Origin: Desulfosoma sp.
GTDB taxonomy: Bacteria; Desulfobacterota; Syntrophobacteria; Syntrophobacterales; DSM-9756
Length of the DNA stretch: 64,000 nt
Assembly: GCA_037481875.1 (NCBI GenBank)
Contig: JBBFKY010000009.1
Location: 1-64,000 of the forward strand
Direction of reading: 5' to 3'
Below the pieces are notes generated by a model. It had not been told where the DNA came from. It worked only from the letters and a program-made list of their open reading frames with translations, and did not search any database. Shown piece after piece: positions 1-26,677 of the stretch. The position numbers and the translations under genes are program-made. Position 1 is the stretch's first letter; each line of letters starts with the position of its first letter.

Positions 1-307
1 CGGTCGTCGGCTGAAGCTCCAGTTTGGTCGGCATTGTCCCGCCTTTCAAGCGTTTCGGAGCGTCTTTCTCAAATTTTGCCCAGCTTGAGGTAAATGGGAG
101 TCGTTGCAACAGCCTGGACCTATTCTATGTTCACGTTGAACGGGGGTGAGGTATGCCCGAAAACAGCTCAATGATCCCAGACATGACCACTTTTCTGCCA
201 CTGGTGAGTCGATGACTCGGGCGATTAGCAGAAACAGGGCATCGCCAACTGCTCAAAACAGGGTCACCACGCCCACACCTTAGCTCGCTCCCCCACACCT
301 CACGGAT
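1..307. other. Gene-free left edge
   Basis: I see no convincing gene here. A short leftward reading frame begins with ATG at 34 behind an AAAGGCGGG sequence and runs off the window after 11 codons, so it could be the start of a leftward gene, but it is too short to identify. The rest has stops in all frames and no recognised repeat. Confidence 0.3.
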
Positions 308-17915: not shown

Positions 17916-20840
17916 CTATGGCTGAGGCCGATCCTCTTGAGGCGGCTTGGTTTCCAGCACCGGAGCCACTTCCACCATGTGGTAGACTTCCAACAAATCT
18001 CCCACCTTGATGTCGTTAAAGTTTTCAATGGTCAAACCGCATTCAAAACCAGCTTTGACTTCCCGTGCATCATCCTTGAATCTTTTCAGGGACGAGATCT
18101 TACCGTCCCAGACCACCACACCGTCTCGAATGAGGCGGACCTTGGCGTTACGTTCAACTTTCCCGTCGGTGACATAGCAGCCCGCTACGGTCCCGATCCG
18201 TGAAATATGAAAGGTCTGGCGCACTTCGGCTCGCCCCAGAATTCGTTCTTCGTACTGAGGTTCCAGTAGGCCCACCATGGCGTCCTTGATGTCGTCCAGG
18301 ATCTGGTAGATCACGTCATAATACCGGATGCTCACTTTTTCTTGTTCGGCCAGTTCCTGGGCTTTGGCATCGGCACGGACATTGAATCCAATGATGATGG
18401 CGTTGGAAGCCGAGGCGAGCATGACATCGCTTTCGGAAATGGCGCCGGTGCCTGCATGGATAAGAGAGACCTTCACTTCGGGAGTAGAGAGTTTCACCAA
18501 GGAATCCCGAATGGCTTCCAGGGACCCCTGGACGTCGGTTTTGAGAATGACGTTGATTTCTTTGATTTGGCCGTCTCGAATCTGTTCATAGAGCTTCTCC
18601 AAAGTCACTTTGGTGGTGCGAGACAGCTCTTTTTCTCTGGCCCTCATCTGCCGATGTTCAGCGACCAGCTTGGCCTGTTTTTCATCGGCCAGCACCACGA
18701 AATCATCCCCGGCATTGGGCACTCCGGAAAGCCCCAGCACCTCTACGGGAACCGACGGCCCTGCGGCCGTGATTCTCTGGCCCTTGTCATTGAACATGCT
18801 GCGCACGCGGCCGGAGTAGGTGCCGCACACATAGGCGTCCCCTTCCCGAAGGGTTCCTTCCTGAACCAGAATCGTTGCGACGGGACCTCGACCTTTGTCC
18901 AACTTGGCCTCAATGACACGGCCTCGAGCCGGCTTGTCGGGGTTGGCCTTGAGTTCCATGAGTTCGGCCTGAAGCAGGACCATTTCCAGAAGATCTTCGA
19001 TACCGATCTTTTTCTTGGCGGAAATTTCCACCATTGTCACATCACCGCCCCATTCTTCAGGCAGAAGACCATGTTCGGACAATTCCCGTTTGACGCGATC
19101 CGGGTTGGCATTCGGTTTGTCGATCTTGTTAATGGCCACCATGATAGGTACCCCGGCGGCCTTGGCATGGTTGATGGCTTCGACGGTTTGTTGCATGACG
19201 CCGTCATCGGCCGCGACCACCAAAATGACGATATCCGTCACTTTGGCACCTCGAGCGCGCATCGCCGTAAAGGCTTCATGGCCCGGTGTATCCAGAAAGG
19301 TGATATGTCTTCCGTCCAGTTCCACGAAATAGGCGCCGATATGCTGAGTGATACCTCCGGCTTCTTCGTCGATAACCTTGGTGTGGCGAATGGCGTCCAG
19401 AAGCGATGTTTTGCCGTGGTCCACATGACCCATGACGGTAACGACGGGCGGGCGTGGCTTAAGATCTTCCGGGCGATCTTCGGTCGAATGGAGAATATCT
19501 TCTTCTTCGAATCCGGCTTTTTCCACTTCGTAATTGAATTCCGAAGCCACCAGAGCCGCTGCGTCAAAGTCGATGGCTTGATTGATGTTGGCGGGAAGGC
19601 CGAGAGCAAGCAGTTTTTTGATGATTTCCGTGGCCTTGACGCCCATCTGTTTGGCCAGATTGGCCACGGTGATGGCTTCATCAATGCGGATACGGCGCTT
19701 GATGGCCTTGGGCACGGTTACCAAAGGCTTTTGCGCCCCGGTGTCTTCACGTGGCAGGCCGGCTTTGCCTCGTTCGTCCTGAGCCCGTAGTTCTTTTTTG
19801 CTGTAAAGGTCTTCACGCCCGACGACTTCTTTGCGGCCTTTGCGCAGCTTTTTTTCGGCAACCGAAGGTTCCTCGTCCGGACGAAGGCGTTTTTTACGTA
19901 GAGGTTCCCGTGTGATTTCCTGTTCTGGAATAAAGCGCACCACTGTCGGAGGAACGTCAGGTTCTTCTTCCGGTTCAACTGGAATGACTTCTGGAAGACT
20001 GATGATACGAGCGGGTTCGTCTTTTCGGCGTTTACGACGGCGCCTTTTCGCTTTCTTTTTCTTACCTTTCTCGTCTTCTTCCGCTTCTTCCGGCAGAGGC
20101 TCGAGGACCTGACGCTTTTCAACAACAGGTGAAGGTTCAGGTCGAGAAATGATTCGTGCCGATGTTTCATGTTCGGCGAGAGGCGCTTGCTCTACCGGTT
20201 CTTCTGGAGCCGGTGTCCGTTCCGAAACCGCTGGCTCAAAGGATGAGACCGGCTCAACAGGCTCTTGGACCGAGACCGACTCCACGGTCCCCTCTTCAGG
20301 GCCGGCTTCGGCCTCCTCAGGCTCTTGAACCACGGGTTCGGTAAGAGCCGTTCTCGGCTCCTCTTCTTGAGAGAGCTCGATCGTGGGTTCAGGCTGCAGT
20401 GCGGTAGTAGGTTCGTCCTCTCTGAAGACTTCGACGGCCGGCGGGGCAGAAGGCGGTGGTTCCACGGCCGGCGGCAGGGCCGGTTCCTCAACCTCGGCTA
20501 TGGGCGCAACAGGTTCTTCGACCTCGACGTCTCGGGGCGGGGCCTGAGCCTCTTCCTCCATGGCTTCGAGCTCTTCCGCCGTTTCCGGCATTTCGACCTC
20601 CACGGGCTCCTCGGCTTCAGCCTTTTTCCGTCGTCGAATTACTTGTCGGCCGATCCTTTTTTCTTCCACCCGTTTGGTCCCATCTCCTTGGAGGTGCTCC
20701 CGAATCTTGGCGATGGCCGATTCACTCAAGGTGCTCATATGGTTTTTTACGGAGATCCCCATCTTGAGGATCCTCTCAAGGAGATCCTTACTATTCATAT
20801 CCAACTCTTTGGCTAGTTCGTGCACCCTCATTCGTGCCAT
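17916..20840 (-). CDS. infB: Translation initiation factor IF-2
   Basis: IF-2 is the GTPase that places initiator tRNA on the 30S subunit. The 974-residue protein opens with an IF2_N helix-turn ([24 protein letters not shown] in outline). It then has a low-complexity region of about 300 residues rich in Glu, Pro and Val, with a lysine/arginine patch near residues 250-275, and a second IF2_N domain ([18 protein letters not shown]). The G domain starts with [14 protein letters not shown] near residue 470, followed by DTPGHEAF and [13 protein letters not shown]. Domains II, III and C2 complete it. The long linker explains the size above the E. coli 890. It lies between ylxR and DUF503. Confidence 0.97.
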
Positions 20841-20852
20841 GGAAAAAACCCC

Positions 20853-21221
20853 CTAGAAATCTTCAACGGCCGTGTCCCCGGACTTAAACCGCGGACGTGT
20901 TTGGGTATTACGCACACATAACGATCGATCCTCCGTGGTTTCGCAGCCCGTCAAATCCTTGAGAAGAGTAGACATTTGCCTCATCAAGGATGGGGACACT
21001 CCCCGTAGCCGGCCTCGAAAAGCGCGAAAGAGTGCTTTGCCTTTCACAACGTGCTTAAGACACGAAGCACACGCATAGGCACCGCGTCCCGGCAGACGTT
21101 GTTTTCGATCATGGATCACCAGGCACTGTTCGTCCAAAACAAGCCGCACAAGGTCTTCCTTGGGTCGCTTGGACCGGCACACGATGCATGTTCGATATGG
21201 CGTGTGTCCTTGGCGAGGCAC
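20853..21221 (-). CDS. ylxR: YlxR family RNA-binding protein (DUF448)
   Basis: The 122-residue protein contains the YlxR domain: PYRTCIVCRSKRPKEDLVRLV, GRGAYACASCLKHVVKGKALFRAFRG. Four cysteines in two CxxC pairs could bind a metal or be structural. YlxR (RnpM) has been reported to bind RNA and, in Bacillus, RNase P RNA. The position between nusA and infB is the standard one. The C-terminal 40 residues are basic and not conserved. The start overlaps nothing and is 3 bp from the nusA stop. Confidence 0.93.
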   Translation of the reverse strand: MPRQGHTPYRTCIVCRSKRPKEDLVRLVLDEQCLVIHDRKQRLPGRGAYACASCLKHVVKGKALFRAFRGRLRGVSPSLMRQMSTLLKDLTGCETTEDRSLCVRNTQTRPRFKSGDTAVEDF

Positions 21222-21223
21222 TC

Positions 21224-22570
21224 TTATTCCACCGGTTTCATGTGTTCTTCGGATTCGGGCTCTTCACTTTCCCCTTCCTCCCCGGCATGGTTTTCGTCTT
21301 CATCAAGCTCATTCTCCTCGACTTCCAGCTCTCCAGCGCTTTCCAACAGGGATCGAGCCTGGGACTGCATGGCTTCCAGAGCTGACGCGGAAAGGCCGGT
21401 CAGAGTCTCCAACTCATCGATTCCCGCTTCACAAAACTCGTTCAGGGAAGTGATGCCCGCTTCATAGAGCTTGTCGGCCATTTCTTCCGACAAGTTATCG
21501 ATGTGCAGCAGAGCCTGGTAGCCGGCTTGCTTTTGACGTTCATAGCGGGATTCGCTTTTCACGTCGATATGCCAGCCCGTGATTCGCGATGCCAGCCTCA
21601 CATTCTGACCTCGACGGCCGATGGCCAGGGACAGCTGATCATCAGGCACAATGACTTCCATGCTTCGATTGGCCTGATCGATGATGACCTTGGTGATAAT
21701 GGCCGGAGCCAAAGCGTTCACCACAAACTTGGCCGGATCCATGTTCCAGGGGACGATATCGATCTTTTCTCCACGCAGTTCCTGTACCACCGCCTGAACC
21801 CTGGATCCCTTCATGCCCACACAGGCACCGACGGGATCCACGTCCGAATCCTTGGACACCACGGCGATCTTGGCTCGGGATCCAGGCTCGCGTGCCGCGG
21901 CCAAAATACTCACCGTTCCGTCGCTGACTTCAGGCACTTCAAGGCGAAAGAGCTGAATCAAAAAATCCGGATGCGTGCGGCTCAGGACGATCTGCGGGCC
22001 CTTGCTGATCTTTTTCACATCCAAAATATAGGCACGAATGCGATCCCCCTGCCGGTACACTTCGCGAGGAATCTGTTCTTTGACCGGTAAAACGGCTTCG
22101 GCGCGACCTAGATTCACGATGATGCCGGAACGATCCACCTTTTGGACAATCCCCGTGACGATTTCGCGTTTTCGGTCCTTGTATTCTTCGTACGTGGCTT
22201 CCCTTTCGGCATCCTTCATCTTTTGAATAATCACCTGTTTGGCCGATTGCGCTGCGATGCGGCCAAGGGTGTCCGTGTCCATGCGGATGCCTAGTTCATC
22301 GCCGATTTCCGATTCCGGGTCCAGGTTTCGAGCCTGTTCCAGTGAAATCTGCTTTTCCGGATCCTCGACTTCTTCAACCACTTCTTTGAACGTAAAGGCT
22401 TCCATTTCTCCAAACTCGTCGTTATAGGTTACCTCTACGTCAATCTTGGACCCGTAGCGCTTCTTGATGGCCGACTTGACCGCTTCGACCAGGGTTTCTA
22501 TCAACACGGCACGATCGATCCCTTTTTCTCGACTGACTTGATCGATCAACCGTTTCAATTCACTGGCCAT
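21224..22570 (-). CDS. nusA: Transcription termination/antitermination factor NusA
   Basis: NusA binds RNA polymerase and nascent RNA and modulates pausing, termination and antitermination. The 448-residue protein has the N-terminal polymerase-binding domain (beginning ELKRLIDQVSREKGIDRAVL), the S1 domain (IVTGIVQKVDRSGIIVNLGRAEAVL), and KH1/KH2 with VGACVGMKGSRVQAVVQEL and LAIGRRGQNVRLASRITGW. One helix-hairpin-helix-like repeat and an acidic tail (EEGESEEPESEE) close it. It is the second gene of the operon after rimP. In E. coli NusA feeds back on its own operon, which fits the terminator found just before rimP. Confidence 0.97.
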   Translation of the reverse strand: MASELKRLIDQVSREKGIDRAVLIETLVEAVKSAIKKRYGSKIDVEVTYNDEFGEMEAFTFKEVVEEVEDPEKQISLEQARNLDPESEIGDELGIRMDTDTLGRIAAQSAKQVIIQKMKDAEREATYEEYKDRKREIVTGIVQKVDRSGIIVNLGRAEAVLPVKEQIPREVYRQGDRIRAYILDVKKISKGPQIVLSRTHPDFLIQLFRLEVPEVSDGTVSILAAAREPGSRAKIAVVSKDSDVDPVGACVGMKGSRVQAVVQELRGEKIDIVPWNMDPAKFVVNALAPAIITKVIIDQANRSMEVIVPDDQLSLAIGRRGQNVRLASRITGWHIDVKSESRYERQKQAGYQALLHIDNLSEEMADKLYEAGITSLNEFCEAGIDELETLTGLSASALEAMQSQARSLLESAGELEVEENELDEDENHAGEEGESEEPESEEHMKPVE

Positions 22571-22633
22571 AATGCCCTTTCTCCTCCTGTGCTTCTCTTC
22601 GGTCCCGGATTCGGTCCCGTGTTCTTCAATGCT

Positions 22634-23152
22634 TCAGTTTTCCTGCCTTGATTTCGGTACTGCCTCAAGCGATTCAAAATAGCGCAAACGGGCCCTTTCC
22701 ACAGCGTCCAAGGGAATGTCATAGGGAATGCCGTCACAGTCCACACGGATCCCTTTCGGGTCCGCCGCCAGCAGAATTCCCTTGAAATTCTTTCGAGAGC
22801 CGATGGGAAGGCGGGTGCGTACAGCCACCACCTTGCCGATCTGGTGCGCGAAATGCTCCCAACGTCGAAGCGGCCGGTCCAACCCCGGAGAAGAGACTTC
22901 CAGATGGTAAGGACCATCAATGGGATCCACCACATCCAAAAGGTCGCCCACAACACGACTTACCGCCGCACAGTCTTCCACGCTGACCCCGCCGTCACGA
23001 TCCACAAAAAGACGAAGCACCCATCCTTGACTTTCCCGGCGGTACTCCACTTCCACCAATTCCATGCCTTCCGCCGTAATTACAGGGGTGGTCAGATCCC
23101 AAATTTTCTCAACGACCGCTCTCGCAGCGTCCTCTTTCATGTCCATGACCAC
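22634..23152 (-). CDS. rimP: Ribosome maturation factor RimP
   Basis: RimP assists 30S subunit assembly. The 172-residue protein has the N-terminal alpha/beta domain (TAEGMELVEVEYRRESQGWVLRLFVDRDGGVSVEDC) and the SH3-like C-terminal domain, joined by YHLEVSSPGLDRPL, the family signature. The frame opens with GTG at 23152; ATGs at 23146 and 23140 are alternatives, and none has a strong ribosome-binding site. This is because a terminator hairpin with its U-tract ends only 11 nt upstream. It is the first protein gene of the long leftward operon. Confidence 0.93.
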   Translation of the reverse strand: MVMDMKEDAARAVVEKIWDLTTPVITAEGMELVEVEYRRESQGWVLRLFVDRDGGVSVEDCAAVSRVVGDLLDVVDPIDGPYHLEVSSPGLDRPLRRWEHFAHQIGKVVAVRTRLPIGSRKNFKGILLAADPKGIRVDCDGIPYDIPLDAVERARLRYFESLEAVPKSRQEN

Positions 23153-23163
23153 ATGCCCAAAGC

Positions 23164-23190
23164 AAAAAAAAAGTGGGCGTTCAGCCCACT
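23164..23190 (-). terminator. Intrinsic terminator / attenuator immediately before rimP
   Basis: On the minus strand AGTGGGC pairs with GCCCACT around a 5-nt loop and is followed by nine Ts. The T-tract ends 11 nt before the first rimP start codon, so no promoter can fit between. Transcripts that include rimP must therefore read through it. It also closes the tRNA-Gly transcript, whose gene ends 184 bp upstream. The opposite strand lacks a T-tract, so the terminator works leftward only. Confidence 0.8.
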
Positions 23191-23373
23191 CCCATTAGCA
23201 GAGCAATGATCACAGAAAATCCGGCTTCAGTGCCGTGAAATGCGACGTTCACAAAAGACCGTGTTGAACATTGTCATCCACTAATCGAAGTCGGCGTCCG
23301 CCGGAAACCGCGCTCCCGCCACCTCAAAAAGGGAAGCCCTTTCGATCGAGGAAAGGGTGAGCTTCATGTCGCG

Positions 23374-23449
23374 TGGAGCGGGCAACGGGATTCGAACCCG
23401 CGACCCCAAGCTTGGGAAGCTCGTGCTCTACCAACTGAGCTATGCCCGC
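23374..23449 (-). tRNA. tRNA-Gly (anticodon CCC)
   Basis: The minus strand folds as a full tRNA. The acceptor GCGGGCA pairs with TGCCCGC, followed by discriminator T and an encoded CCA (23374-23376). The D arm is GCTC/GAGC, the anticodon arm CGAGC/GCTTG with loop TTCCCAA, and the T arm GCGGG-TTCGAAT-CCCGT. The anticodon CCC reads the glycine codon GGG. It lies upstream of rimP on the same strand, the place taken by metY in E. coli, and probably shares the operon leader. Confidence 0.95.
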
Positions 23450-23576
23450 CCAACCGCCACAACAACGTCATCCTAGAGAGTTCCCCCAGCGAAGTCAAGC
23501 CCAATGTCAGGAAGATGGCGTGAACCCAGCCCGTATTCAACTATAACCGGTTCGTGAATCCATAGGTATATAAAAT

Positions 23577-23760
23577 CCTAGGAGCTTGTCCGAAAATTGG
23601 CAATACCAAGGTGTCTTGCCATCACAAGGTAGGGGTGAGGAGGCGCCTCACCCCTACAAGGCGAACCTGGGCTATTTCTTGGGCTGCCATCCCTCAGGCT
23701 CGGCCTTTGTGCGAACGGGATGCCCGCGCCCCAAGAAAAAACATTCTCAGCTTCAAGCTT
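23577..23760 (+). mobile_element. MITE-like interspersed element, copy 2
   Basis: The element opens with CTAGGAGCTTGTCCGAAAA and carries a perfect 12-bp-arm palindrome, GTAGGGGTGAGG / CCTCACCCCTAC, at 23629-23657. It contains a GGGATGCCCGCGCCCC segment and ends near CATTCTCAGCTTCAAGC, a degenerate inverted match to its head. It has no gene. Together with its flanks it accounts for most of the 430 bp between tRNA-Gly and the archease gene. Confidence 0.6.
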
Positions 23761-23882
23761 CTCTTTGGTTTTGGAACCGGTTACCTCTATAGCATGAAAG
23801 ATGATGCAAGAGACGAGCCCAGGGGCACGGGACCTTTGCCAAGACTGTGAAGACCATGAGCGGTGTGGAAAAAGGGGTTCTA

Positions 23883-24326
23883 ATGGGTGGCAACGGTGAA
23901 GCAAAGGATCAGAATCTCTACGAAATCATCGATCACACGGCGGATGTGGGGCTTCGTGTACGAGGACGCCATGTGGCAGAGGTTTTTGAAAAAGCGGCCT
24001 TGGGATTCTATGACCTCATGGTGAGTCTTAAGGCTGTGGAAGCTGGTGCTGTTCGTCATGTCAGCGTGGAAGCCGAGGCGTTGGATGATCTTTTGGTGCA
24101 GTGGCTTTCCGAGCTTCTTTACCTTTTTGAAGTGGAGGGTTTTTTGGGCAAGAAGGTGCAAGTGGTTATCCATCCGCAATGGAGCCTGACCGCCGCCGTC
24201 CAGGGTGACTTTTTCGATCCGAAACGCCATGAACTCAAGCTCCTTTACAAAGCCGTAACGTATCATCAAGCTTCCGTAGATTTCTCTGACGGCACATGGA
24301 CGGCTCAGGTGATCTTTGATATCTGA
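23883..24326 (+). CDS. Archease
   Basis: Archease promotes multiple turnover and guanylylation of the RNA ligase RtcB. The 147-residue protein has the expected pattern: YEIIDHTADVGLRVRG at the N-terminus with the conserved aspartate, DLLVQWLSELLYLFE in the middle, and the C-terminal HELKLLYKAVTYHQASV strand ending in an aspartate near VIFDI. I chose ATG 23883 because the conserved part begins soon after it; GTG/ATG starts upstream only add unconserved residues. It is 45 bp before rtcB on the same strand, which supports the assignment. Confidence 0.93.
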   Translation: MGGNGEAKDQNLYEIIDHTADVGLRVRGRHVAEVFEKAALGFYDLMVSLKAVEAGAVRHVSVEAEALDDLLVQWLSELLYLFEVEGFLGKKVQVVIHPQWSLTAAVQGDFFDPKRHELKLLYKAVTYHQASVDFSDGTWTAQVIFDI

Positions 24327-24370
24327 CATTTTCGCTTGCCTGAAGGCTGATATGGCTGGGAGGTTCAAGT

Positions 24371-25828
24371 ATGAGCGGCAAAGAACGTCTCTCATTGGAA
24401 AGAATCGATGGGTGGCGCTGGAAGATTCCGCGCACCGGTGCCATGCGAACGGACGGTATCATTTATGCCGGAGAAAAAATGCTGGATGCCATTCGTCAAG
24501 ATCAGGCCATGGACCAGGTGGCCAATGTGGCCTGTCTTCCCGGGATCGTGGGTTATTCCATGGCCATGCCGGACATTCATTGGGGCTATGGGTTTCCCAT
24601 CGGAGGGGTGGCCGCTTTTTCCATGGAGGAAGGCATTGTTTCGCCGGGTGGTGTCGGATACGACATCAACTGTGGCGTGCGTCTCATGACCACTCACCTT
24701 AGGGCTCTTGAATTGGGTGCCGACAAGATTCGAGAACTGGTCACAGCCCTGTTTCGAAACATTCCCTCCGGCGTCGGATCTAGTCGCAAGGATTTTAAAC
24801 TGAGTGAAGCCGAACTGGATCACGTGCTGCTCAAAGGGGCTCAATGGGCGGTTTCCAAAGGGTTCGGCGAAGCTTCGGACTTGGAACGCATCGAAGAGGG
24901 TGGGTGTATTCCATGGGCTGATCCCGAACAGGTGTCCGCCAAGGCCAGAGAACGTGGCCGATCCCAGTTGGGAACACTGGGATCAGGTAATCATTTTGTG
25001 GAAATCGGTGTGGTGGAAGAGATCTACGAGCCGAAGACGGCGGAGGTTTTCGGTTTGTTTTTGGGACAGCTCACCGTTTTTGTTCATACGGGCTCTCGCG
25101 GTCTGGGTCATCAAGTCTGCGACGACTTTATCCGTGTCCTGCTCAAGAGCACGCAAAAGTACGGCATCGAGTTGCCGGACAAACAACTGTGCTGCGCCCC
25201 TGTGACTTCTTCGGAAGGACGGAGTTACCTTGGAGCCATGGGAGCCGCGGCCAATTTCGCCTTTGCCAATCGCCAAATGATCAGTCATTGGGTTCGAGAA
25301 ACCTTTGAACAGTTTTTTAAAGAACCGTCGGAACGCCTTGGTTTATCGCTCCTTTACGACGTATGCCACAATATGGCGAAAATTGAAGAGCATGTCTGGC
25401 AAGGGCGGCGCCTGAAATTGTGCGTGCATCGCAAGGGGGCCACTCGAGCCTTTGCGGCAGGTCATGAAGCCGTACCGGATCTCTACAGGTCTGTGGGACA
25501 GCCCGTGCTCATCCCCGGTGATATGGGTCGCTACAGCTACGTGCTGGTGGGAACGCAGCGGGCTATGGAAGATACCTTCGGCAGCACATGCCACGGTGCC
25601 GGCCGAGTGCTCAGCCGTCATCAAGCGGTGAAAAGCGCCAAGGGTCGAAGTGTCCTTAAGGAAATGGAAGATCGAGGCATCTTCGTTCTCGGCGCCAGCA
25701 AGGCCACTTTGGTGGAGGAAATGCCCGAAGCCTATAAGGATGTGAGCGATGTGGTGGAAGTTGTGGCCCACGCCGGTATCAGCCGCCCGGTGGCCAGGCT
25801 TCGCCCTCTCGGCGTTATGAAAGGGTAA
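24371..25828 (+). CDS. rtcB: RNA-splicing ligase RtcB
   Basis: RtcB joins RNA 2',3'-cyclic phosphate or 3'-phosphate ends to 5'-OH ends using GTP and manganese. The 485-residue protein has the archaeal/eukaryal-type length. Visible landmarks are GGVGYDINCGVRLM with the metal-binding aspartate and cysteine, LGTLGSGNHFVEI, HTGSRGLGHQV and HRKGATRAF. The ATG follows GGGAGG. Paired with archease it forms a complete ligation module that could repair cleaved tRNAs or mRNAs; which RNA is served is not shown by the sequence. Confidence 0.96.
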   Translation: MSGKERLSLERIDGWRWKIPRTGAMRTDGIIYAGEKMLDAIRQDQAMDQVANVACLPGIVGYSMAMPDIHWGYGFPIGGVAAFSMEEGIVSPGGVGYDINCGVRLMTTHLRALELGADKIRELVTALFRNIPSGVGSSRKDFKLSEAELDHVLLKGAQWAVSKGFGEASDLERIEEGGCIPWADPEQVSAKARERGRSQLGTLGSGNHFVEIGVVEEIYEPKTAEVFGLFLGQLTVFVHTGSRGLGHQVCDDFIRVLLKSTQKYGIELPDKQLCCAPVTSSEGRSYLGAMGAAANFAFANRQMISHWVRETFEQFFKEPSERLGLSLLYDVCHNMAKIEEHVWQGRRLKLCVHRKGATRAFAAGHEAVPDLYRSVGQPVLIPGDMGRYSYVLVGTQRAMEDTFGSTCHGAGRVLSRHQAVKSAKGRSVLKEMEDRGIFVLGASKATLVEEMPEAYKDVSDVVEVVAHAGISRPVARLRPLGVMKG

Positions 25829-25870: not shown

Positions 25871-26677
25871 CTAGAATCTGACAATTCCTATCAGGACCGC
25901 CAGGAACGAAAAACCGATCCCCATGGTCCACTGCATAAAAAGGAACCGCTTGTCCATGCTTTCAAACCGTTGATTGATAGCCTCAAAGCGCGTGTGCATT
26001 TCTCGCTGCAGGGCTTCGAAGCGTTTGTCCATGGCTTGAAACCGCTCATTGATGGCTTCAAAGCGCGTGTGCATTTCTCTCTGCAAGGCTTCGAAGCGTT
26101 TGTCCATGGCTTGAAACCTCTCATTGATGGCTTCAAAGCGCGTGTGCATTTCTCGCTGCAAGGCTTCGAAGCGTTTGTCCATGGCTTGAAACCGCTCATT
26201 GATAGCTTCAAAGCGCGTGTGCATTTCTCGCTGCAAGGCTTCGAAGCGTTTGTCCATGGCTTGAAACCGTTCATTGATAGCTTCAAAGCGCGTGTGCATT
26301 TCTCTCTGCAAGGCTTCGAAGCGTTTGTCCATGGCTTGAAACCGCTCATCCATGGTTTGAAACCGTTCATTGATGGTTTCAAAGTGCGCGTGCATTTCGC
26401 GCTGCAAGGCTTCGAAGCGTGTGTCCATGGACACAAAACGGTCACAGATGACCTGGAAGCGGTCCATTTCCATTTGGCGAAGTGACTTGACTTCCTCTTC
26501 GACACGAATGATCCGCTCCAGTAGCGAGAGCTCCTTGGCCCGGAGTTCATTTTCCCTGAAGAACTGGGCGATCTTTTCGCTGATGAGGTTTTCCGCTTCT
26601 TCGTGCAAGAGGCGCCGAAGGGCCCCAAGCATCTTTTCGTCCAGAATGGGATCTTGCGGTATTTGGGACAAAACCAT
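25871..26677 (-). CDS. Tandem-repeat coiled-coil protein with C-terminal membrane anchor
   Basis: This 268-residue protein is not one I can name. The N-terminal 80 residues are helical and charged. From about residue 95 comes a 32-residue unit and then four near-identical 25-residue units (MHTRFEAINERFQAMDKRFE plus ALQRE), ending in a partial copy. Each unit splits into two heptads (RFEAINE, RFQAMDK) and one hendecad (RFEALQREMHT), the pattern of a long coiled coil. The last 25 residues are hydrophobic (MGIGFSFLAVLIGIV), so it is probably tail-anchored in the inner membrane. The ATG has GGAGGAAG before it. Other frames are also open over the repeats because the unit is 75 bp, but only this one makes sense as a protein. 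Confidence 0.7.
   Translation of the reverse strand: MVLSQIPQDPILDEKMLGALRRLLHEEAENLISEKIAQFFRENELRAKELSLLERIIRVEEEVKSLRQMEMDRFQVICDRFVSMDTRFEALQREMHAHFETINERFQTMDERFQAMDKRFEALQREMHTRFEAINERFQAMDKRFEALQREMHTRFEAINERFQAMDKRFEALQREMHTRFEAINERFQAMDKRFEALQREMHTRFEAINERFQAMDKRFEALQREMHTRFEAINQRFESMDKRFLFMQWTMGIGFSFLAVLIGIVRF
25975..26400. repeat. 75-bp tandem repeats within the coiled-coil gene
   Basis: About five copies of a 75-bp unit, with only a few substitutions between neighbours, encode the 25-residue coiled-coil unit. A 21-bp insertion lengthens the promoter-proximal copy. High identity between copies suggests recent expansion, and copy number may vary between strains without breaking the frame. 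Confidence 0.85.

Follow-up and report, generated by a model that had tools for sequence, protein, structure and literature searches.

A conserved leader RNA with a putative three-strand switch between tRNA-Gly(CCC) and rimP in Desulfobacterota

Organization of the locus

The window analysed here is a stretch of 64,000 nucleotides from Desulfosoma sp. (contig JBBFKY010000009.1), in which the rimP operon lies on the minus strand. In the direction of transcription, a promoter-like site (23498-23470) is followed by tRNA-Gly(CCC) (23449-23374), a 180-nt gap, a terminator, and the genes rimP, nusA, ylxR and infB. A promoter scan describes the first of these as a sigma-70-like TTGACT-17-TAGGAT sequence 20 nt 5' of the tRNA, which was itself recognized by both ARAGORN and Rfam. 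The protein-coding genes were assigned from Pfam as rimP (22634-23146; RimP_N, 1.9e-27), nusA (21224-22570; NusA_N, 4e-38), ylxR (20853-21221; YlxR, 2.6e-17) and infB (17916-20840; IF-2, 1.7e-45). The first possible rimP start, a GTG at 23152, leaves the 11-nt gap to the T tract that an earlier, preliminary description of this DNA had claimed. Comparison with two relatives of the same genus (MEPKEDPTRAVV and MNGKVEATRAVV) indicates that the start is probably the ATG at 23146 (MDMKEDAARAVV), 17 nt past the tract. Elsewhere in the window, an open reading frame at 25871-26677 contains a tandem, coiled-coil-like repeat unit (RFEAINERFQAMDKRFEALQREMHT).

Four segments, A to D, can be distinguished between the tRNA and rimP. 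Segment A (UCCCUUUUUGAGGUGGC, short form UCCCUUUUUGAGG; 23334-23318) carries invariant letters and is predicted to pair with segment B (GCCGACUUCGAUUAGUGGAU, short form CUUCGAUUAGUGGA; 23295-23276), the partner common to A and C. Segment C (GCUCUGCUAAUGGGAGUGGGC; 23204-23184) would serve both as the antiterminator partner of B and as the 5' arm of the terminator, while segment D, the 3' arm, occupies 23178-23164 together with the T tract. A further hairpin, P0 (CCCTTTCCTCGATCGAAAGGG; 23357-23337), lies between the tRNA and segment A. It was detected by a scan and in the leader sequences, and is present in the window's family and some other families without being universal.

The terminator before rimP

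The C:D terminator spans 23193-23164. As reported in the preliminary description, it consists of a 7-bp hairpin (AGTGGGC/GCCCACT on the minus strand) and nine T at 23172-23164. The stem can be extended from 7 to 10 bp with weaker pairs, the RNA strand reading GGGAGUGGGC-UGAAC-GCCCAC before the nine T that end at 23164, and with 10 pairs it is the longest terminator-like site in the scan. The predicted folding energy of the 51-nt hairpin region is -20.0 kcal/mol, compared with -11.65 +/- 2.46 for shuffled sequences, and none of 200 shuffles was as good. A hairpin and T run of the same type are present in all 49 class loci put through extraction, and the terminator helix is paired in 99.9% of cells across 97 phylum-wide sequences.

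This terminator belongs to a known kind. Naville & Gautheret (2010; PMC2965389) describe as the most ubiquitous attenuator the rimP-leader, a GGGc..gCCC motif with a U stretch that lies directly 5' of rimP-nusA-infB, separated from the start by 4-130 nt. Both stem and U stretch are found in the window, and the 17 nt to the ATG at 23146 fall within the published range. The terminator before rimP is real and an ordinary member of the rimP-leader terminators.

A long stem that buries the rimP start codon in the minimum-energy fold of the window was discarded as a candidate, having by eye no match after the terminator in the relatives L009 and L010. In L049-L053 and other loci of family f5, the likely rimP ATG lies only about 4-6 nt past the U tract. 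Since the Shine-Dalgarno sequence in f5 has no room outside the hairpin, the hairpin may affect translation there as well.

Extent and distribution of the conserved leader

A rimP match was obtained in 52 of 55 genomes of the class, and upstream regions were taken from 50 of the 52, leaving out G045 and G048. All 50 regions have tRNA-Gly(CCC) 5' of rimP; it is complete by ARAGORN in 49, and in the fiftieth (L023) the tRNA is truncated by the contig end and the leader is present. Across the class, the gaps between tRNA and rimP share segments A to D in a constant order. An alignment of 48 sequences, from which L012 was omitted as a near copy of L011, has 24 invariant columns and was used to build a covariance model, R1. 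At a threshold of E <= 0.001, R1 matches 129 of 395 phylum genomes, 17 within the class and 112 outside it. The match is single in 128 of the 129, and G036 has a second, weak match on the opposite strand.

Outside the class, the loci examined were the best 53 of the 112, the remaining 59 being weaker matches. Within these best 53, rimP is downstream in every case, either inside the stretch taken first (46 loci) or about 0.6-1.7 kb further on, past inserted genes (7 loci). An upstream tRNA-Gly(CCC) accompanies 46 of the same best 53; the loci without one are L098, L119, L121, L123, L124, L125 and L126, some of them near a contig end. An exact-pattern scan of a collection of genomes from 84,980 species returned 76 records, a set that overlaps the covariance-model set. 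The records are labelled as Desulfobacterota or by older names or members of it (Deltaproteobacteria, Thermodesulfobacteriota, Desulfarculus and others), with three labelled only as Proteobacteria. Named carriers include Desulfacinum infernum, Desulfoferrobacter suflitae, Desulfocarbo indianensis and a Desulfosoma MAG. The tRNA lies within the limit in 74 of the 76, one miss falling exactly at 150 nt and the other at a contig end, and rimP is present in 74, both misses ending at a contig edge. The distance between tRNA and leader ranges from 0 to 80 nt, and in many families segment A begins 0-2 nt past the CCA end of the tRNA.

On this comparative evidence, the whole stretch from 23334 to 23164 is a conserved leader RNA of which the terminator forms the last part. 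In Rfam 15 no family matches it; only the tRNA reaches the gathering score, and weaker matches were judged to be chance. The rimP family RF01770 has no match above its curated cut-off in any of the 55 class genomes, and none at all in G000. A literature search on Deltaproteobacteria, tRNA-Gly and rimP leaders generally, mostly at the level of listings and covering few subscription journals, returned no description of the leader. The leader is absent from Rfam and previously uncatalogued, the new part being the RNA that surrounds a terminator of known kind.

Pairing and covariation

RNAalifold recovers both A:B and C:D from the 48 class sequences. For A:B, P2 and C:D taken together, 92.3% of cells are paired in these sequences compared with 89.0% after shuffling, and 69 two-sided changes compare with 25.2 in shuffles; in neither respect did any of 500 shuffles do as well, although here and below such counts are not probabilities since the rows are related and not independent. 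Slid partners, used as a control, give 35-52% paired in the same 48 sequences. Across the 97 phylum-wide sequences (alignment A3), A:B and C:D are 96.0% paired versus 92.1%, with 109 two-sided changes versus 26.6 (0 of 500 shuffles for both), the A:B count including UCCCU:AG.GGA, which lies outside the model used to fit the alignment. The six middle pairs of A:B provide a separate measure: over 35 distinct A/B combinations, 160 of 210 pairs are formed, compared with 142.7 +/- 3.2 and a maximum of 154 in 5000 redeals of the partners.

The preliminary description had proposed a search for an alternative antiterminator fold, and one was found: the 5' arm of the terminator has an alternative partner in segment B. 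With P2 included, B:C is 90.5% paired versus 85.6% shuffled and has 73 two-sided changes versus 26.5 (0 of 500). These changes fall mostly in an inner helix, UUAGUGGAU/GUCUGCUAA, and few are in the 9-bp core, which likewise lies outside the model used for alignment fitting; the core has seven two-sided cells and none among the 48 class sequences. The scarcity of such changes in the core is attributable to its letters being tied to other partners. Covariation is seen both in the inner helix and in the UCCCU:AG.GGA part of A:B, which are mutually exclusive because both use B. Column B9 illustrates the double constraint, its A/B/C letters being UAU in 61 rows and CGC in 7 and pairing with both A and C in 73 of 91 rows.

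The B:C duplex was also compared with shuffles of C. This test covered 178 leaders, of which 7 lacked A/B by pattern and 10 lacked a terminator according to a finder that misses runs such as TTTATTTG (L091) and whose call in L189 is probably spurious. In 71 of 114 unique leaders, including that of the window, at most 2 of 200 shuffles equalled or beat the duplex, and in 85 of the 114 at most 10 of 200 were as good. The duplex is weak (more than 10 of 200 as good) in the other 29, among them the genomes L014 (100 of 200) and L015 (20 of 200), which belong to the family of the window. B:C is unsupported in L014, in members of f12 and f56, and in a mostly Desulfobacterales group (L135, L152, L160, L177, L191, L196, L199 and L203).

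The energies of the competing folds are equilibrium values in which the polymerase is not included. On a prefix that ends with C, the B:C fold is lower in 36 of 48 class sequences and A:B in 12, and 38 of 48 full-length cores are more stable in the terminator state. In the window, B:C is favored on the prefix (-55.1 vs -48.3), and the antiterminated form of the full core is slightly lower (-62.0 vs -59.8). Such a near balance of two folds is as expected of an attenuator.

Promoters and lineages that depart

A promoter overlapping the hairpin, which would have spoken against the attenuated operon of the preliminary description, was not found; the promoter-like sites within 22000-25000 all lie 5' of the tRNA. 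Between 23470 and rimP there is no promoter-like site at the scan threshold. Of 48 class loci with enough sequence, 39 have TTGAnn-16..18-TAnnnT no more than 75 nt from the tRNA, compared with 32 of 1000 control windows, and the tRNA promoter is thus conserved in the class. Given the position of this promoter, the tRNA would be made from all transcripts, as had been suggested.

Several lineages depart from the common arrangement. Ten Desulfarculus-type loci (nine distinct records, L130 being apparently identical to L185) retain A and B and show no U-tract terminator. In all 10 of these loci B has the sequence GUGGACC or GUGGAGCC and a GGUCCAC lies 57-59 nt beyond it, an arrangement reproduced by 92 of 5000 shuffles, which suggests that B has retained a pairing partner farther downstream although the terminator has not been kept. 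Other genes separate the leader from rimP in seven f12 loci, where the leader may therefore function independently. By eye, some of the inserted genes in L218-L224 (f12) resemble small toxin-antitoxin or transporter genes. The five f13 loci (L119, L121, L123, L124 and L125) lack A and B, and their rimP is preceded by a promoter of its own, TTGCAN-17-TATANN; GGUCUGCU and the terminator are retained, and no upstream tRNA was found in the sequence available. Together with L126, these loci lack A/B and have a TTG-17/18-TAT promoter 5' of the terminator. The absence of A/B where rimP has its own promoter fits a role for A/B in transcripts from the tRNA promoter.

Relation to known leaders

In most species, as far as the account in PMC2965389 extends, the rimP-leader has no larger conserved element, and an antiterminator is described in some Gammaproteobacteria only. 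The leader described here differs from that majority form in having about 170 nt that are conserved and potentially switchable, with segments A, B and C. The E. coli operon metY-rimP-nusA-infB likewise begins with a tRNA and has terminators before rimP that transcripts read through (PMC6511841), but its tRNA is fMet and its terminators are two (t1/t2); this likeness is drawn from published descriptions and not from a sequence comparison of the A/B/C arrangement. CspA-family proteins are reported to antiterminate in the E. coli leader (PMC11648934, PMC12562117). In B. subtilis, NusA-stimulated intrinsic termination in the leader of its own gene nusA (ylxS) limits nusA, and that account, so far as it goes, describes no tRNA or A/B segments (PMC12288461).

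A T-box riboswitch shares the terminator/antiterminator switch, and segment B contains a UGGA complementary to the UCCA end of tRNA-Gly. A T-box was nevertheless rejected because there is no Rfam T-box match, there is little room for a stem I, and UGGA becomes CGGA in some lineages. A 6S RNA at the locus was rejected as well, the 6S RNA (RF00013) of the genome lying elsewhere (G000:C6:3296-3474). For comparison with boxA, the NusB-S10 antitermination site, two rRNA leaders of Desulfacinum (G003; L210 and L211) carry GTCTGCTCTTTGAAAAC. The C segment of the G003 rimP leader shares only GUCUGCU with it, and G009 and G036 do not show this likeness; no rRNA belonging to the window was found. The comparison gives no clear support for a boxA in the leader. 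A Burkholderia 'sRNA' family, RF02420 (Bp1_162), matches weakly at 23196-23102. It starts with a UGGGC..GCCCA hairpin and a pyrimidine run, much like the rimP-leader terminator, and may be a rimP leader under another label.

A model for the leader and its alternatives

On balance, the tRNA-rimP interval probably functions as a cis-acting leader RNA, a three-strand transcription attenuator read from the tRNA promoter. Comparison shows the conserved RNA, the A:B helix and the terminator and, in most lineages, that of the window included, a strong B:C alternative. Transcription would start at the promoter 5' of the tRNA. If A:B formed, C would be free for D and the GGGC/GCCC terminator would stop the polymerase at 23164, once the tRNA and a short leader RNA had been made. 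Pairing of B with C instead, along the full length of the 9-bp core and inner helix, would block the terminator, and rimP-nusA-ylxR-infB would be read. The choice would be made during transcription, tipped by NusA, a cold-shock or ribosomal protein, or another ligand. The factor would probably act on A, a pyrimidine-rich strand freed in the read-through state; that it is a protein, by analogy with CspA antitermination in E. coli, is a guess. Feedback by NusA on its own operon is plausible, since NusA of B. subtilis is autoregulated by leader termination. The comparative evidence favors the attenuated rimP-nusA-infB operon of the preliminary description, which had recognized the terminator alone and overlooked the leader conserved across the phylum. 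What counts against the simple cis model are the lineages with A:B that lack a terminator or a good B:C, or that have inserted genes.

It is conceivable that the GGGC/GCCC terminator alone matters and that NusA stimulates it and so limits its own synthesis, the upstream RNA being kept for tRNA processing or by descent. The motif is that of the published rimP-leader, NusA autoregulates in B. subtilis (PMC12288461) and, according to a citation in PMC2965389, represses the operon of E. coli, and f13 keeps the terminator without A and B. Such an attenuator would leave unexplained the invariant A and B with their compensatory changes, as well as how strongly B fits C in 71 of 114 leaders, and is considered unlikely. 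Another alternative is a stable small RNA or tRNA 3' trailer, acting in trans or in tRNA maturation, that the terminator merely ends and past which rimP is reached by leaky read-through. The closeness of A to the CCA end in many families, the retention of A:B where the terminator is missing or rimP displaced, and the promoter 5' of the tRNA agree with it. Against it stand rimP downstream in all of the best 53 non-class loci, a tRNA distance that varies from 0 to 80 nt, and a terminator of rimP-specific type, and it is considered improbable.

tRNA genes often end in terminators, and that general habit is what would favor an ordinary tRNA-gene terminator, with rimP having its own promoter in the leader or between the hairpin and the start codon. 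This is very improbable: the scan, at its threshold, found no such promoter between 23470 and rimP, 17 nt separate the tract from the ATG, and lineages in which rimP does have its own promoter are recognizably different. Going beyond the cis-acting attenuator, the leader could be a new sensory element of Desulfobacterota, phylum-wide, whose three-strand switch couples tRNA-Gly(CCC) output, NusA and ribosome-maturation genes. A ligand would act on the A:B hairpin and the downstream platform would be swapped between lineages, being a terminator or, in Desulfarculus relatives, another structure. This wider proposal is tentative and somewhat doubtful.

Implications

Both a general transcription factor and ribosome factors depend for their supply on the rimP-nusA-infB operon. 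For the known rimP-leader, the antiterminator is visible only in some Gammaproteobacteria and the recognizing factor is left open, as far as PMC2965389 describes it. Here the antiterminator partners can be read from covariation, which offers defined point changes for probing what tips the putative switch. The leader also adds a sizeable structured RNA beyond the contents of Rfam. It is common to many sulfate-reducing bacteria and their kin, and through two competing folds it probably decides whether the operon is read.
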